A stretch of DNA of 64,000 bases, from positions 1-64,000 of the forward strand of contig CALVSO010000004.1 in the NCBI GenBank assembly GCA_944359055.1. Direction: 5' to 3'. Positions 8,751 to 35,928 of the stretch are shown one piece after another. The stretch's first letter is position 1; the number at the start of each line of letters is the position of its first letter. The notes under the pieces were generated by a model, which was not told where the DNA came from, did not search any database, and was given only the letters and a program-made list of their open reading frames with translations. The position numbers and the translations under genes are program-made. The DNA comes from an uncultured Bacilli bacterium. Its GTDB lineage: Bacteria; Bacillota_I; Bacilli_A; RF39; UBA660.

Positions 8751-9884
8751 TTATTTTTTTTCTATAGCATCAGCATGTAATTTAGCATATTTCTCAACTT
8801 GACTACTTATTAATTCATAATCATTTCTATAATCTAAACCAATAGCAGCCTTAACTCTTGCAAGTGTTTTAGAAGCTTTTAATCTTGCTTTTTCACTTCC
8901 CTCAAACAAAATTTGATAAACTTCTGGTATATGTTTTTCCAATTCGTATCTTCTAGCTCTAATTGGGGCCAAAGTATCTTCCAAAACATAGTTTAAGAAT
9001 TTTTTGACTTTCATATCTCCTAAACCGCCACGTTCATAATGAGCTTTTAATTCATCTAAATTCTTATACTCAATTTCTCCAGTTTCTGAATTTTTAAAAT
9101 ATTCTTCAAAATGTTTATCTTTTGAAAATGCTGAAAGATATATAAATACCGGATTACCTTCGGTTACACCTGGATCTTGTACTCTTAAATGATTTGGATC
9201 CGTAAACATTCCCATTACTTTTCTTTTTACTTCTTCCTTACTATCAGATAAATAAATACAATTTCCTATTGATTTACTCATTTTAGCTTGACCATCAGTA
9301 CCTGGTAATCTATGACAAGCAGTATTTTGTGGTAAAACAGCTTGTGGCTCAACCAATGTATTACCATATAGTCTATTAAAAGTACGAACTATTTCTCTAG
9401 TCTGTTCTACCATTGGTAATTGGTCATCACCAACTGGAATTATATTTGCATCAAAAGCTGTTATATCTGCGGCTTGGCTAATAGGATAAGTCATAAATCC
9501 TACTGGCAATGTGTTTTGAAATCCTCTATATACAATTTCTTGTTTTACAGTTGGATTTCTTTGTAATCTTGCAACAGTAACTAAATTCATATAATAAAAT
9601 GTTAAATCACTTAACTCTGGAACTTCAGATTGTAGAAAAATTGTACATTTTTTTGGATCTATTCCACATGCCAAATAATCTAATGCAACTTCTATAACAT
9701 TATCCTTTACTTTTTGAATATTTCCCGAATTATCAGTTGTTGCTTGTGAATCTGCAATTTCTATATACATTTCATCATACATACCTGAATTTTGTAATTG
9801 AACTCTTTGAGATAGCGATCCAACTAAATGTCCTAAATGTAATCTTCCTGTTGGTCTATCTCCTGTCAATATAATATTTCCCAT
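8751..9884 (-). CDS. trpS: Tryptophanyl-tRNA synthetase
   Basis: Class I aminoacyl-tRNA synthetase charging tRNA-Trp. The HIGH motif is HLGH in [17 protein letters not shown] near the N-terminus and the KMSKS motif is intact (AKMSKSIGN). At 377 residues it is somewhat longer than the ~330 of B. subtilis TrpS. No T-box or tryptophan-specific leader fits in the 58 bp between it and rel. It has its own AAAAGGAG site and probably follows rel on the same transcript. Confidence 0.95.
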
Positions 9885-9942: not shown

Positions 9943-11373
9943 CTAACTTTTAGTAAACTCTCTTATTAATCTTTTAGCTTGAGTAGTTACTGCTTTATCA
10001 AGCCAATCTTCTCTTGGGCCGTAAGATAATATATCTGTTATAATTCTAACTCTATCTTTACTTTTTAGTACATAATCCGGTTCAACAACTCTATCATTAA
10101 CTATAGCTGAAACCATTGTATTTCCAACATCTGGTCCAATACTATAAGCAAAGTCAATAGTAGTAGATCCTTTTGGTAATTCTATTATATCACCTCTAGT
10201 AGTATATACATATATTCTATCAGAAAATAATTCTGATTTTACTTGTCTTACAAAATCTTGATTATCTGAAAAAACACGATTAATTTCGATTAATGATTTA
10301 AAAAATTGATATTTACTTTTTAAATTTTCTTGCATTATATCTCTAGCATTTCCTTTACTTATATCCCAATAAGCCGTAAGCCCAAATGAAGCAATTTTAT
10401 CCATATCAAATGTTCTTATTTGAGTTTGGACTAATCTTTCATCTGCACCAAAAACAGTTGTATGCAAAGATCTATACATATTTGTTTTAGGATTATATAT
10501 ATAATCTTTAAATTTATTATTTATTGGATGATATTTAGAATGAATCAATCCTAAAGCTTGATAACAATTAGCTATATCATCAACCATTATTTTTAAAGAT
10601 AGTAAATCATGAATATCAGATAATTTATGTCCTTGTTCCATTCTTTTATATATTCCATAGATGTTTTTTGTTCTTACTTTTATTTCATGCGGAATGTTTT
10701 TATCATTTAATATTAAATTAATTGTTTGAAGCATTTCATTTAAACAATTTTGACTTTCCTTTTCTATTCTAGATTTTATTTCTTCAATTCTTTTATATCT
10801 ATCAGGATAAAGATATTGAAGTGATAAATCTTCTAATTGAGATTTTATTCTATAAGCTCCAATGTAATAAGCAAGTGGTACAAATATATCCATTGTTTCT
10901 AATGAATTTTCTTTTTGTTTAAATTCCGATTTAAATTGTAATGTTTGCATATTATGAAGTCTATCAGCTAATTTAATAATTATTATTCGAACATCATCAG
11001 TTATACTAGTTATTATTTTTCTTGTATTAGCATAATTTTGGTCTTGCTTAGAAGAAAAATTCATTTTAGCTAATTTAGTAACTCCATCAACCAAATTAGC
11101 AATACTTTGATTAAAATCATGGGCTATTTCTTCTTTTGTTATATTGGTATCTTCTATTGTATCATGTAATAATCCCGCACATATAGTATCACTATCAGCA
11201 TGCATATCGGCTAAAATACAAGCAACATTTAAAGGATGAATTATATAAGGTTCCCCACTTTGTCTAAATTGACCACTATGCAAATTACTAGCATATTCAT
11301 AAGCTTTTTTTATTATTTCAATTTCTTCTGGATTATAATCCTTTAATTTTCCAATTAAAACATTTAAAGTCAT
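9943..11373 (-). CDS. Truncated Rel/SpoT-type (p)ppGpp enzyme, hydrolase motifs intact, synthetase Glu replaced
   Basis: Stringent-response enzyme with an N-terminal HD hydrolase (HPLNVA, HDTIEDT, KLADRLHNM all present, ~45-150), a RelA/SpoT synthetase domain (RTKNIYGIYKRM, YRSLHTT) and a TGS domain (~385-450). It stops at 476 residues, so the helical, zinc-finger and ACT regulatory domains of ~730-residue Rel are missing. In the synthetase motif normally written EIQIRT, the catalytic Glu is Gln316 (CAA at 10426-10428). The usual LRI/VRI arginine after the DLL motif is Lys. These changes suggest a protein biased to, or restricted to, (p)ppGpp hydrolysis. Transcription is probably controlled by the leader module at 11395-11535. 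Confidence 0.9.
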   Translation of the reverse strand: MTLNVLIGKLKDYNPEEIEIIKKAYEYASNLHSGQFRQSGEPYIIHPLNVACILADMHADSDTICAGLLHDTIEDTNITKEEIAHDFNQSIANLVDGVTKLAKMNFSSKQDQNYANTRKIITSITDDVRIIIIKLADRLHNMQTLQFKSEFKQKENSLETMDIFVPLAYYIGAYRIKSQLEDLSLQYLYPDRYKRIEEIKSRIEKESQNCLNEMLQTINLILNDKNIPHEIKVRTKNIYGIYKRMEQGHKLSDIHDLLSLKIMVDDIANCYQALGLIHSKYHPINNKFKDYIYNPKTNMYRSLHTTVFGADERLVQTQIRTFDMDKIASFGLTAYWDISKGNARDIMQENLKSKYQFFKSLIEINRVFSDNQDFVRQVKSELFSDRIYVYTTRGDIIELPKGSTTIDFAYSIGPDVGNTMVSAIVNDRVVEPDYVLKSKDRVRIITDILSYGPREDWLDKAVTTQAKRLIREFTKS

Positions 11374-11394
11374 TTAAAACACCTCCCAAACACA

Positions 11395-11431
11395 AAAAAG
11401 GCAACCAAAAATATTTTTAGTTACCTTTTTT
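11395..11431 (-). terminator. Intrinsic terminator/attenuator in front of rel
   Basis: On the minus strand GGUAACU-AAAAA pairs with UUUUU-GGUUGCC and is followed by six Us. All stem positions pair on this strand with G-U wobbles. On the plus strand the same positions are C-A mismatches, so the structure is built for leftward transcripts. It lies between a promoter and the rel start, and its 5' arm overlaps the last codons of the leader peptide. Confidence 0.8.
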
Positions 11432-11476
11432 AAACAATATGAATGAAGAGTTATAACAACATAAATTTATTCTCAT
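11417..11476 (-). CDS. 19-residue leader peptide upstream of rel
   Basis: An ATG preceded by GAGGTGAGGAG opens a 20-codon frame encoding MRINLCCYNSSFILFKKGN. Its stop codon and last three sense codons lie inside the 5' arm of the terminator that precedes rel. It begins roughly 25 bases after the predicted transcription start. Tandem Cys-Cys-Tyr codons (UGU UGU UAU) sit at residues 6-8. A ribosome translating to the stop would cover the 5' arm and prevent the terminator from folding. No function outside regulation is expected. Too short for homology-based proof. Confidence 0.6.
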   Translation of the reverse strand: MRINLCCYNSSFILFKKGN

Positions 11477-11506
11477 ACTCCTCACCTCACTAAATAATTA
11501 AGTAGC

Positions 11507-11535
11507 ATTTTACTCTTATATTATTAAGTTGTCAA
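11507..11535 (-). promoter_or_regulatory. Promoter of the rel leader
   Basis: Consensus -35 TTGACA (11535-11530), a 17-base spacer and TAAAAT (11512-11507). It lies just downstream of the alaS stop. Transcription would begin near 11500, upstream of the leader peptide and attenuator. Confidence 0.8.
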
Positions 11536-11550
11536 GATGTTAATTAAATT

Positions 11551-13335
11551 TTATTCTAAAACTGCTTTTATTCTTCTAACACCAGCTGAAGAACTTTGTT
11601 CTTTAACAATTTTAAATTTTCCTAAAGATGATGTTCTTTCAACATGTGGACCACCACATAATTCTTTTGATACATCACCAATTGTATAAACTGTTACAAC
11701 ATCTGGATAAGTTTCAATAAACATACATTCTGCTCCTGTTTTAACAGCATCTTCTTTATTCATTGTTTCTTTTTTAACTTCTAAATCTTCTTTTATCCAT
11801 TTATTAACTAAATTTTCTACTTCTAATTTTTCTTCATCAGTTAATTTATGGTCACAATTAAAATCAAAACGCATTCTTTCACTAGTTATATTACTACCCA
11901 TTTGATGAATATTTTTATCAACAACAACTTTCAAAGCTGCATTTAATAAGTGAGTTGCTGTATGATATTTAGTTTCCATTTCTCCTGAAGAAGCTAAACC
12001 ACCTTTAAATTCCCCAGATAACACTCTTGATTTTTCTTGATGTTCTCTAAACTTTTCTTTGAAAGCATCAGTATCTACTGAAAGACCAATTTCACTAGCT
12101 AATTCTATTGTTAACTCAACAGGGAATCCATAAGTATCATATAATTTAAAACTATCTGGTCCATTAATTACTTTAACATTATTATTTATAAGTCTATTAG
12201 TAAGTTTATAAAATTCATTCATTCCAGAATTTATAGTTTTTTCAAACTTATCGATTTCTTTTTTTAATTCGGTTAAAATGAAATCTTTTGATTTAATTAA
12301 ATTAGGGTAAACATCACCATAAACATCATCAATAAAATTATTAGCTATTTCATAAAATACATCTGTTTTTATATTTAATTTTTTAGCTTGAACAACTGCT
12401 CTTCTTATTAATCTACGAAGAATATAACCAGCTCCTATATTAGAAGGAGTTAAATGTTTTTCATCACCTAAAAGCATAATACTAGTTCTTATATGATCAG
12501 CTATAATACGCATTGATATAGTTGTTGATTTTTCTTCATTATATTTTTTACCTGTTTCTTCTTCTAATATTTTTATTGCACCATTAAATAAATCAGTTAA
12601 ATATACATCACCATTAGTATTTAAGAATGCTAACATTCTTTCTAATCCCCAACCAGTATCAACATTTTTGTTTTTTAATGGTTCATATTCATTATCACTT
12701 ATTCTATCATATTGCATGAAAACATCATTACCTATTTCAATGAAATGACCACAATCACATGAAGGATTACAATTAGGTCCACATGGTTCTTTATCAGTTA
12801 TATAAAACATTTCACTATCTGGTCCACATGGTCCTCTTTCTAATTCCCACCAATTATGTTCCTTAGGTAAATAATAAATATTTTCTTTTAAGAATCCTGA
12901 TTCTTCTCTTAATTTAGCAGTTTCTTCGTCTTTTGGTACATTTTCATTACCACTAAATACTGTAGCAGCTAATCTATCTTTAGGTAAATCAAATACTTGA
13001 GTTAATAATTCATAACTCCAAATAGTTCTTTCTTTTTTAAAATAATCACCTAAACTCCAACTACCAAGCATTTCAAAAAATGTTACGTGACTAGAATCAC
13101 CCACTGATTCAATATCATTTGTTCTTACGCATCCTTGAACATTACATAATCTTTTTCCCTTTGGATGTTCTTTTCCTAATAAATAAGGCATCAAAGGTTG
13201 CATACCTGCTACATTAAATAAAACACCTGTAGTTCCATCACCTATTAAAGAAACTGCCCCAATATCAACATGACCTCTTTGTTCATAAAATTTAATCCAT
13301 TCTTTTCTAAGTTCTTTAGAAGACATTTTTTTCAC
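11551..13335 (-). CDS. alaS: Alanyl-tRNA synthetase lacking the C-terminal (C-Ala) domain
   Basis: Class II synthetase for tRNA-Ala. The catalytic core is recognisable (GVLFNVAGMQPLMPYL, VTFFEMLGSWSLGDYFK), with a Cys-rich insertion around CGPNCNPSCDCGH. The editing domain retains all four metal ligands: HTATH and CGGPH. The protein ends right after the editing domain (GVRRIKAVLE) at 594 residues, whereas typical AlaRS is ~870 residues with a coiled-coil and C-Ala domain. The start is GTG, with AGGTGAT five bases upstream. The promoter is probably TTTACT-18-TACAAT, with a 12-bp palindrome AATAACGTTATT (13353-13364) at the predicted start of transcription. Confidence 0.95.
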   Translation of the reverse strand: MKKMSSKELRKEWIKFYEQRGHVDIGAVSLIGDGTTGVLFNVAGMQPLMPYLLGKEHPKGKRLCNVQGCVRTNDIESVGDSSHVTFFEMLGSWSLGDYFKKERTIWSYELLTQVFDLPKDRLAATVFSGNENVPKDEETAKLREESGFLKENIYYLPKEHNWWELERGPCGPDSEMFYITDKEPCGPNCNPSCDCGHFIEIGNDVFMQYDRISDNEYEPLKNKNVDTGWGLERMLAFLNTNGDVYLTDLFNGAIKILEEETGKKYNEEKSTTISMRIIADHIRTSIMLLGDEKHLTPSNIGAGYILRRLIRRAVVQAKKLNIKTDVFYEIANNFIDDVYGDVYPNLIKSKDFILTELKKEIDKFEKTINSGMNEFYKLTNRLINNNVKVINGPDSFKLYDTYGFPVELTIELASEIGLSVDTDAFKEKFREHQEKSRVLSGEFKGGLASSGEMETKYHTATHLLNAALKVVVDKNIHQMGSNITSERMRFDFNCDHKLTDEEKLEVENLVNKWIKEDLEVKKETMNKEDAVKTGAECMFIETYPDVVTVYTIGDVSKELCGGPHVERTSSLGKFKIVKEQSSSAGVRRIKAVLE

Positions 13336-34678: not shown

Positions 34679-35928
34679 CTACCCAACTCACTTTCAAATT
34701 GTTTTAATTCTTCATCAGATAACATTTCTTCTTGTACATCTTGATTAACCCAATTAGGAATTTTTTCTTTTTTAGGAATTTTAACTTTTTTAGTATTCTT
34801 TTGATCATATTCTTTTAAAGCAAAATCCATAGCATCAGATACTGTTTCTATTTTACTTCTTTTCCACTGAACAGCTATTTGTTCAACAAATCCTCTTACC
34901 AACTTATTATTATTTATTTTTAAAACGTAGTCAATTAAAACATTTATTACACCTGGTTTTAGTTTTTGTTCAATCATTAAATATTCAATTATTTCCATAT
35001 CTTTTATTGTTGGTTTAGAATCTTGTTTTAAAGCTAAAAATTCATAAGGATTAGTTGTTTCAAATTGATTGATTAATTTATCTTTTCTTGTATTAATTTC
35101 TTTAAAAGAAGATACATCATCTTGAAATACTATTTTAGGTATTTGACCTTTATGCTCAAATTTATAAAAACTACGACAGTTTTGTTTTAAAACTTCCATA
35201 TCTATTTTTCGATCTACAATACTATTTCTTAATATTTCACTCATTTCATCATTACCTAAATTATAAATAAATGATAACTGATAAATTAATTCTTTATCAG
35301 ATTTAGAAATACTTCTTACATTAAGCATTTCTTCTGGAATTAAACTTAATAGCTCATTAAAATTAATTGTTGGTTCAAAAGATAAATCTAAATGATTTAC
35401 TTTTTTAATATTTTTAGTTTCTATTTTATCAGTACTAACAAAACTAAAAACATCCTTAAAATTACAAGAAACATTTTTATAATCTTTTAAATCTATTTTA
35501 GGTAGTGTAAATGAATCAATTATTCTTTTATATTCTTTTTTATTAATGTTATTATATAATGCAGTATTTAAAATTGGATTATTAATAAATTCATAAGCAG
35601 ACAAAGGTCCATATAACTCATAAACATAATTATTAACATCACCTTTTTTTAAATATGTTTTAATTAAACCAATAGCTTCTAATTTATCTTTAGCTTCTTT
35701 AATATCTTCTAATTTTAATTGCATACTCATAACTAAATCATTATGGGTATTACTAGTAGAAGTTACTTTATTTTTATCTAAAAAACTCCATAAAGTTAGA
35801 TACAAACTAACAGCAATACCACCTATAATTGGTTGATATAAAAGGGTTAGAGTTAAACGATCTTGGTCATCTAAGATAGTTTTATTAATAACATAAAAAT
35901 TATCTAAAGGTAATAATGAATTAACCAT
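34675..35928 (-). CDS. dnaB: Replication initiation/membrane attachment protein DnaB (B. subtilis type)
   Basis: Part of the Bacilli primosome, not the replicative helicase. It shows the winged-helix opening DNFYVINKTILDDQDRLTL with LLYQPIIGGIAVSLYL, and C-terminal DnaD-like repeats around FLALKQDSKPT and LKPGVINVLIDYVL. The length is 417 residues from the ATG (MVNSLLPL), chosen because GGAG stands eight bases upstream; the longest frame has 12 extra residues without a site. Confidence 0.88.
   Translation of the reverse strand: MVNSLLPLDNFYVINKTILDDQDRLTLTLLYQPIIGGIAVSLYLTLWSFLDKNKVTSTSNTHNDLVMSMQLKLEDIKEAKDKLEAIGLIKTYLKKGDVNNYVYELYGPLSAYEFINNPILNTALYNNINKKEYKRIIDSFTLPKIDLKDYKNVSCNFKDVFSFVSTDKIETKNIKKVNHLDLSFEPTINFNELLSLIPEEMLNVRSISKSDKELIYQLSFIYNLGNDEMSEILRNSIVDRKIDMEVLKQNCRSFYKFEHKGQIPKIVFQDDVSSFKEINTRKDKLINQFETTNPYEFLALKQDSKPTIKDMEIIEYLMIEQKLKPGVINVLIDYVLKINNNKLVRGFVEQIAVQWKRSKIETVSDAMDFALKEYDQKNTKKVKIPKKEKIPNWVNQDVQEEMLSDEELKQFESELGR

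Follow-up and report, generated by a model that had tools for sequence, protein, structure and literature searches.

In ribosome-dependent transcription attenuators, a translated leader ORF is followed by an intrinsic terminator, both lying in the 5' portion of the gene under control. In pyrBI and ampC of E. coli, termination is averted when translation of the leader extends to the terminator, no antiterminator being needed. Leaderless polycysteine ORFs of mycobacteria were reportedly described by Canestrari et al. in 2020 (cited in PMC13236596), being said to be cysteine-responsive and to precede operons tied to cysteine supply. In Rhodobacterales, the cysS leader uORFC-8-2 carries Cys codons, predominantly UGC, ahead of an intrinsic terminator, with stalling presumed to permit read-through (PMC8632094), and the vmlR leader of B. 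subtilis relies on an anti-antiterminator/antiterminator switch that is induced by stalling (PMC9226507). Ribosomes of E. coli were found to repress terminators sited just after stop codons (PMC4824070), and under tight coupling ribosomes are held to prevent the formation of intrinsic terminator hairpins (PMC5021804). No published report of an attenuator preceding a rel gene or a gene for an RSH hydrolase was found in the open-access literature searched.

The window, meaning the whole stretch of 64,000 nucleotides analysed here (contig C4 of a 1.34 Mb source assembly of 48 contigs), was found to carry a predicted translated leader ORF followed by an intrinsic terminator ahead of a rel gene, in the minus-strand gene order alaS, leader, rel of 476 aa and trpS (Table 1). 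These elements probably constitute a ribosome-occluded transcription attenuator controlling a Rel paralogue that is predicted to be hydrolase-only.

Locus layout and conservation of the leader

Identification of a near-consensus promoter, a 19-codon frame and a good ribosome site was in agreement with the initial annotation, which had proposed all three at these places. The promoter was the top-scoring match among 46 promoters found in 7 kb and is kept in three related loci (L058, L059, L070). The last codons of the frame form the 5' arm of a terminator before the rel gene, as had also been proposed, and this terminator is directional in that its G-U pairs turn into A-C mismatches on the opposite strand. 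It was absent from the list returned by a simple terminator scan, because its U-tract lies mostly within the stem. The leader RNA of the window was predicted to form two hairpins, one joining the SD with the pre-terminator segment and the other being the terminator, and its fold was more stable than those of shuffled sequences (z = -6.4); the stem hiding the leader ribosome site goes beyond what had been annotated. A search of Rfam with the leader gave no matching family. Examination of 50 genes in the window identified a leader of this kind only at rel, the sole other match lying at position 35928 with a 69-aa XRE-like ORF.

Table 1. Positions of the leader, terminator and short rel features in the window
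Feature	Position	Strand	Basis
Promoter TTGACA-17-TAAAAT of the leader-rel transcript	11507..11535 (TTGACA 11535-11530; TAAAAT 11512-11507)	-	Promoter scan
Leader SD, doubling as left arm of the predicted SD-sequestering stem	11478..11488 (arm ~11475-11490)	-	Sequence, fold
Leader ORF, 19 codons, MRINLCCYNSSFILFKKGN, stop included	11417..11476 (ATG 11476-11474; stop 11419-11417)	-	Sequence; frame-specific codon signal in homologous leaders
Cys-Cys codons (TGT TGT), ~24-29 nt upstream of terminator arm	11456..11461	-	Matches family-wide Cys peak position
Right arm, segment pairing with leader SD	11439..11452	-	Fold; in leaders generally, SD partner at -30 to -6 nt
Intrinsic terminator; 5' arm overlaps final leader codons and stop	~11393..11432	-	Fold, dG -17.7 kcal/mol
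rel SD	11387-11380	-	Sequence
Short rel, 476 aa, HD-synthetase-TGS; predicted (p)ppGpp hydrolase, Gln at synthetase catalytic Glu	9943..11373 (ATG 11373)	-	Domain search, alignment

With regard to the flanking genes, alaS (11551-13335, minus strand) is the sole alanyl-tRNA synthetase gene detected in the genome, and its product of approximately 594 aa stops after the tRNA_SAD domain and seemingly has no C-terminal domain of the usual kind. The trpS gene 3' of rel (8751-9884, minus strand) is one of two tryptophanyl-tRNA synthetase genes, the other (contig C8) being 49% identical.

Among 74 curated (81 raw) short rel genes from 50 genera, a common anatomy of promoter, leader ORF of 17-48 codons and terminator was identified. 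The terminator of the 74 curated leaders ends approximately 20-30 nt upstream of rel, with its 5' arm overlapping or abutting the leader stop, so that the stop-arm overlap noted in the initial annotation is common over 50 genera. A leader ORF (preceded by an SD and ending at -10 to +32 nt relative to the first nucleotide of the 5' arm) was found at 81 of 96 terminators before short rel, against 3.9 +/- 2.2 (maximum 9) in 30 trials with shuffled upstream sequence, and the arrangement is therefore not due to chance. When grouped by identity to the window Rel, leaders were present at 29/31 loci (at least 75%), 34/38 (65-75%), 14/23 (57-65%) and 4/26 (below 57%), and none of 35 long rel genes had such a leader. 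A -35/-10 pair scoring at least 10/12 was found upstream of 62% of homologous leaders, compared to 8% for the null, and its -10 element lies approximately 31 nt from the leader ATG. At short rel loci with less than 57% identity (e.g. L157, L170, L177), a terminator often lies at a greater distance from rel, with a TTGAC-like promoter after it and without a leader. As distant short rel genes are often without a leader, the attenuator is characteristic of only part of the short-Rel group.

The genes upstream of short rel fall into 64 clusters among 70 loci, indicating that the leader belongs to rel and not to a genomic place; synteny as the cause of conservation was rejected, given that the upstream genes differ. 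Since the window has alaS on the same strand, upstream of the leader, the terminator could be taken as merely ending the alaS transcript, with the leader ORF being fortuitous. This reading is scarcely credible, as the promoter sits between alaS and the leader, only some 20 nt separate the terminator from rel, upstream genes vary among loci and are sometimes in opposite orientation, and leaders end at the arm in the 81 cases mentioned where 3.9 would be expected.

The short Rel paralogue

The genome was found to encode two Rel proteins sharing 52% identity, a long one of 724 aa (contig C22), which is of the ordinary kind, and the 476-aa copy. The latter possesses the Pfam domains HD_4, RelA_SpoT and TGS and terminates after TGS, being without the C-terminal part that contacts the ribosome (alignment to B. 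subtilis Rel 6yxa) and which characterizes full-length ribosome-associated Rel. Judged by its sequence, the window rel is a second, C-terminally truncated paralogue and not the main Rel.

A set of approximately 125 short Rel proteins was assembled from one bacterial family, whose members are uncultured and live in the gut; the named relatives carrying them belong to the Bacilli and include Candidatus Faecisoma, Candidatus Onthousia and UBA660. Short copies were confined to this family in a sample of 247 genomes spanning the class (E <= 1e-130). Short Rels separated from long ones with a support of 98-99 in a FastTree phylogeny that held only six long sequences. The synthetase catalytic Glu (E323 in S. 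equisimilis numbering, within PLEVQIRT) was identified to be Gln in 123 of 125 short Rels and Lys in the other 2, with Glu in none; long Rels of these bacteria and their relatives have it in 36 of 36. The hydrolase residues H53, H77, D78, E81, D82, D144 and N148 are essentially invariant in short Rels. This corresponds to the pattern of a hydrolase-only RSH, with HD residues conserved and a synthetase catalytic residue lost, while synthetase residues D264 and Y308 are retained. By the shared motif, E319 of E. coli SpoT is presumably the same position as the altered Glu. The SpoT E319Q variant is severely deficient as a synthetase and shows normal (p)ppGpp decay (PMC6085430). Given the replaced Glu, the preserved hydrolase site and this precedent, the short rel is best read as encoding a predicted dedicated (p)ppGpp hydrolase. 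The initial annotation had regarded the target as a stringent-response rel, which holds true as far as homology to Rel is concerned, but the gene encodes a paralogue whose synthetase is predicted to be dead and whose hydrolase site is intact, and the physiological meaning would therefore be reversed.

Six genomes (G009, G016, G067, G068, G105, G400) were found to have two short rel copies on different contigs, most copies having their own leader and terminator. At locus L058 of a close relative (G008, Candidatus Faecisoma merdavium), short rel is split over two frames near codon 36, representing a pseudogene or an assembly error; leader and terminator are retained there although rel is split, and the leader Cys is shifted next to the stop.

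Cysteine codons and RNA structure of the leaders

Across the 74 curated leaders of 50 genera, in-frame Cys codons accounted for 13.9% of all codons in the stretch from -42 to -18 nt relative to the arm, compared to 3.5% and 3.7% in the other frames (Fisher p = 3e-14); the Cys share of the Rel proteins is 0.9%, and no other amino acid is enriched as strongly at this position relative to Rel. This excess is frame-specific, which shows translation of the leaders and the importance of the residue or codon, and an origin at the level of RNA only was rejected for the same reason. A Cys codon lies between -48 and -13 in 57 of the 74 leaders, the fixed place expected of regulatory codons in classical amino-acid attenuators (trp/his/cysS type), and 17 are without one. 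Relative to the start of the arm (16 nt in length), the last Cys has a median position of -24 and the end of the stop one of +12.5. Cys frequency drops after -18. The leading edge of a ribosome lies approximately 12-14 nt beyond its A site, and the drop coincides with where a ribosome awaiting Cys-tRNA would start to cover the arm.

The expectation in the initial annotation that relatives would share the leader was borne out for the leader-terminator arrangement, present over 50 genera and enriched in Cys, but not for the tandem Cys-Cys, which is not fixed (L070 has Cys-Arg, and the only Cys of L058 is near the stop), nor for the leader sequence, as a DNA search with it gave matches within the genus only, owing to the divergence of leaders. 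Leader sequences are unrelated between genera, position and Cys being all that they share. This speaks against the leader encoding a functional Cys-containing small protein, with the terminator just setting the ratio of small protein to Rel, as does the observation that many of the peptides are not hydrophobic; a few (L085, L180) resemble membrane peptides, with LSC close to the end, which would suit such a protein, but the explanation is very improbable.

TGC accounts for 46% of leader Cys codons and 15% of those in rel, an excess above that of other C-ending codons. Part of it may be due to pairing with the SD, which does not fully account for it, and as the preference for TGC over TGT exceeds the general trend, sensing of Cys-tRNA alone is insufficient as an explanation. 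Four leaders (L117, L127, L134, L153) share CGC-CCN (Arg-Pro) near the SD-pairing segment, three of these having no Cys in the key stretch. This pair may provide another place for stalling or may simply belong to the pairing.

The leader SD was found to pair with a segment approximately 6-30 nt before the arm beyond what shuffled segments allow (74 leaders, duplex z = -1.57, p = 7e-10), and leader folds exceed shuffles in stability (mean z = -2.1, p = 6e-13). A NusG-type TTNTTT pause motif before the terminator was not enriched. The initial annotation had put forward a weak pairing of GUUGUU, from the Cys codons, with GGUAAC of the terminator arm as an antiterminator. This proposal failed, since in homologous leaders the pre-terminator segment pairs with either terminator arm no better, and slightly worse, than shuffles do; no classical antiterminator overlapping the 5' arm of the terminator is therefore detectable.

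The effect of ribosome position was modelled with a 30-nt footprint, reflecting geometry only. The mean probability of the terminator was 0.94 for free RNA, 0.93 with a ribosome at the start, 0.06 at the stop and 0.92 at Cys, the last value being partly built in, as Cys sites were chosen within a distance window; for the leader of the window the respective values were 0.96, 0.91, 0.00 and 0.96. The lack of any rescuing structure with a ribosome at Cys was not built into this choice of sites. In terms of geometry, a ribosome near the stop would thus mask the terminator as in the pyrBI/ampC type. The model reproduces two suggestions of the initial annotation, namely that a ribosome finishing the peptide would mask the arm and that one held at Cys would leave it free.

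These results bear on stall-induced antitermination, in which a ribosome stalled at Cys by starvation or antibiotic would free an antiterminator and turn rel on, as in the vmlR and cysS leaders. The Cys codons do adjoin the SD-containing stem, a feature of Cys attenuators already described (PMC8632094), and Bacilli have many attenuators that are inducible by antibiotics (PMC9226507). Nevertheless, with the pre-terminator segment pairing with neither arm above chance and the terminator staying at 0.92 with a modelled ribosome at Cys, this explanation is unlikely. Occlusion could instead read general translation capacity, in the manner of ampC-like growth-rate control, with Cys codons serving only as slow or rare timing codons. 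The evidence for occlusion, i.e. the 81 of 96 leaders ending at the arm and the modelled masking at the stop, applies equally to this case, and 17 of 74 leaders have no well-placed Cys; it is a rather doubtful reading in view of a Cys peak that is sharp in both frame and position and is approached by no other amino acid.

Proposed mechanism and relation to known attenuators

In the proposed mechanism of ribosome occlusion, RNA polymerase would start at the leader's own promoter and transcribe the short leader ORF. A first ribosome completing the leader would reach the stop in or beside the 5' arm of the terminator and block the hairpin, allowing rel to be transcribed. If the ribosome were held at Cys approximately 18-42 nt before the arm, due to low Cys-tRNA or slow translation, or if initiation did not take place, the hairpin would form and transcription would terminate. 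Once transcribed, the pre-terminator segment would close the leader SD, probably limiting the test to the pioneer ribosome. Under sufficient cysteine and translation, the predicted hydrolase would be made and (p)ppGpp kept low, while under deficiency of either it would be withheld and (p)ppGpp from the long bifunctional Rel would persist. That a family-wide RNA switch gates a hydrolase-only Rel by cysteine in particular, with a stall at Cys meaning off in reversal of the classical polarity, is about evenly balanced between being right and wrong. Against occlusion with gating by Cys stand the 17 of 74 leaders without Cys in the key stretch, the preference for TGC and, within the genus, the loss of the second Cys in L070. 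Transcription and translation may be only loosely coupled in Bacilli. In E. coli, terminators lying in the initial 100 bp of a coding region were found to be efficient (PMC4824070), suggesting that the pioneer ribosome may come late, which counts against occlusion, as does the missing enrichment of the TTNTTT motif.

The ribosome is known to control Rel enzymes by binding them directly. If the proposed mechanism is true, the ribosome would also control (p)ppGpp via transcription of a dedicated hydrolase that has no ribosome-binding part, and the stringent response would gain a second, RNA-level input, acting on (p)ppGpp decay and not on its synthesis. A stall that turns expression off would invert the textbook polarity of amino-acid attenuators, yet would suit an enzyme that removes an alarm signal. 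The 74 natural leaders would also provide a ready set for establishing how codons and distances govern terminator occlusion in Bacilli.

Comparison with described systems reveals both shared and differing elements. As for the gene product, SpoT E319Q and other synthetase-defective long RSH proteins (PMC6085430) share the Glu-to-Gln change at the EVQIRT motif and an intact hydrolase site, whereas in short Rels the change occurs naturally and is fixed throughout the family, the part C-terminal to TGS is also absent, and the protein coexists with a complete long Rel. The mycobacterial polycysteine ORFs resemble the proposed attenuator in cysteine-responsive leader translation, but are reportedly leaderless with polycysteine tracts and are not known to have a Rel target. 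Like the cysS leader uORFC-8-2 (PMC8632094), those of short rel are short ORFs with Cys codons ahead of an intrinsic terminator; however, the target there is a cysteinyl-tRNA synthetase, and here it is a Rel paralogue for which stalling is predicted to lead to termination. The vmlR leader (PMC9226507), from a member of Bacilli, likewise has a leader ORF, an SD-containing hairpin and a terminator, and differs in its antiterminator, none being detectable in short-rel leaders. With pyrBI and ampC, the proposed attenuator would have in common that leader translation favours expression without an antiterminator, the differences here being a target of the hydrolase-type Rel, a positioned Cys cluster, an SD sequestered by the pre-terminator segment and occurrence in another bacterial group. 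The proposed mechanism would be a variant of known attenuation with a new target.
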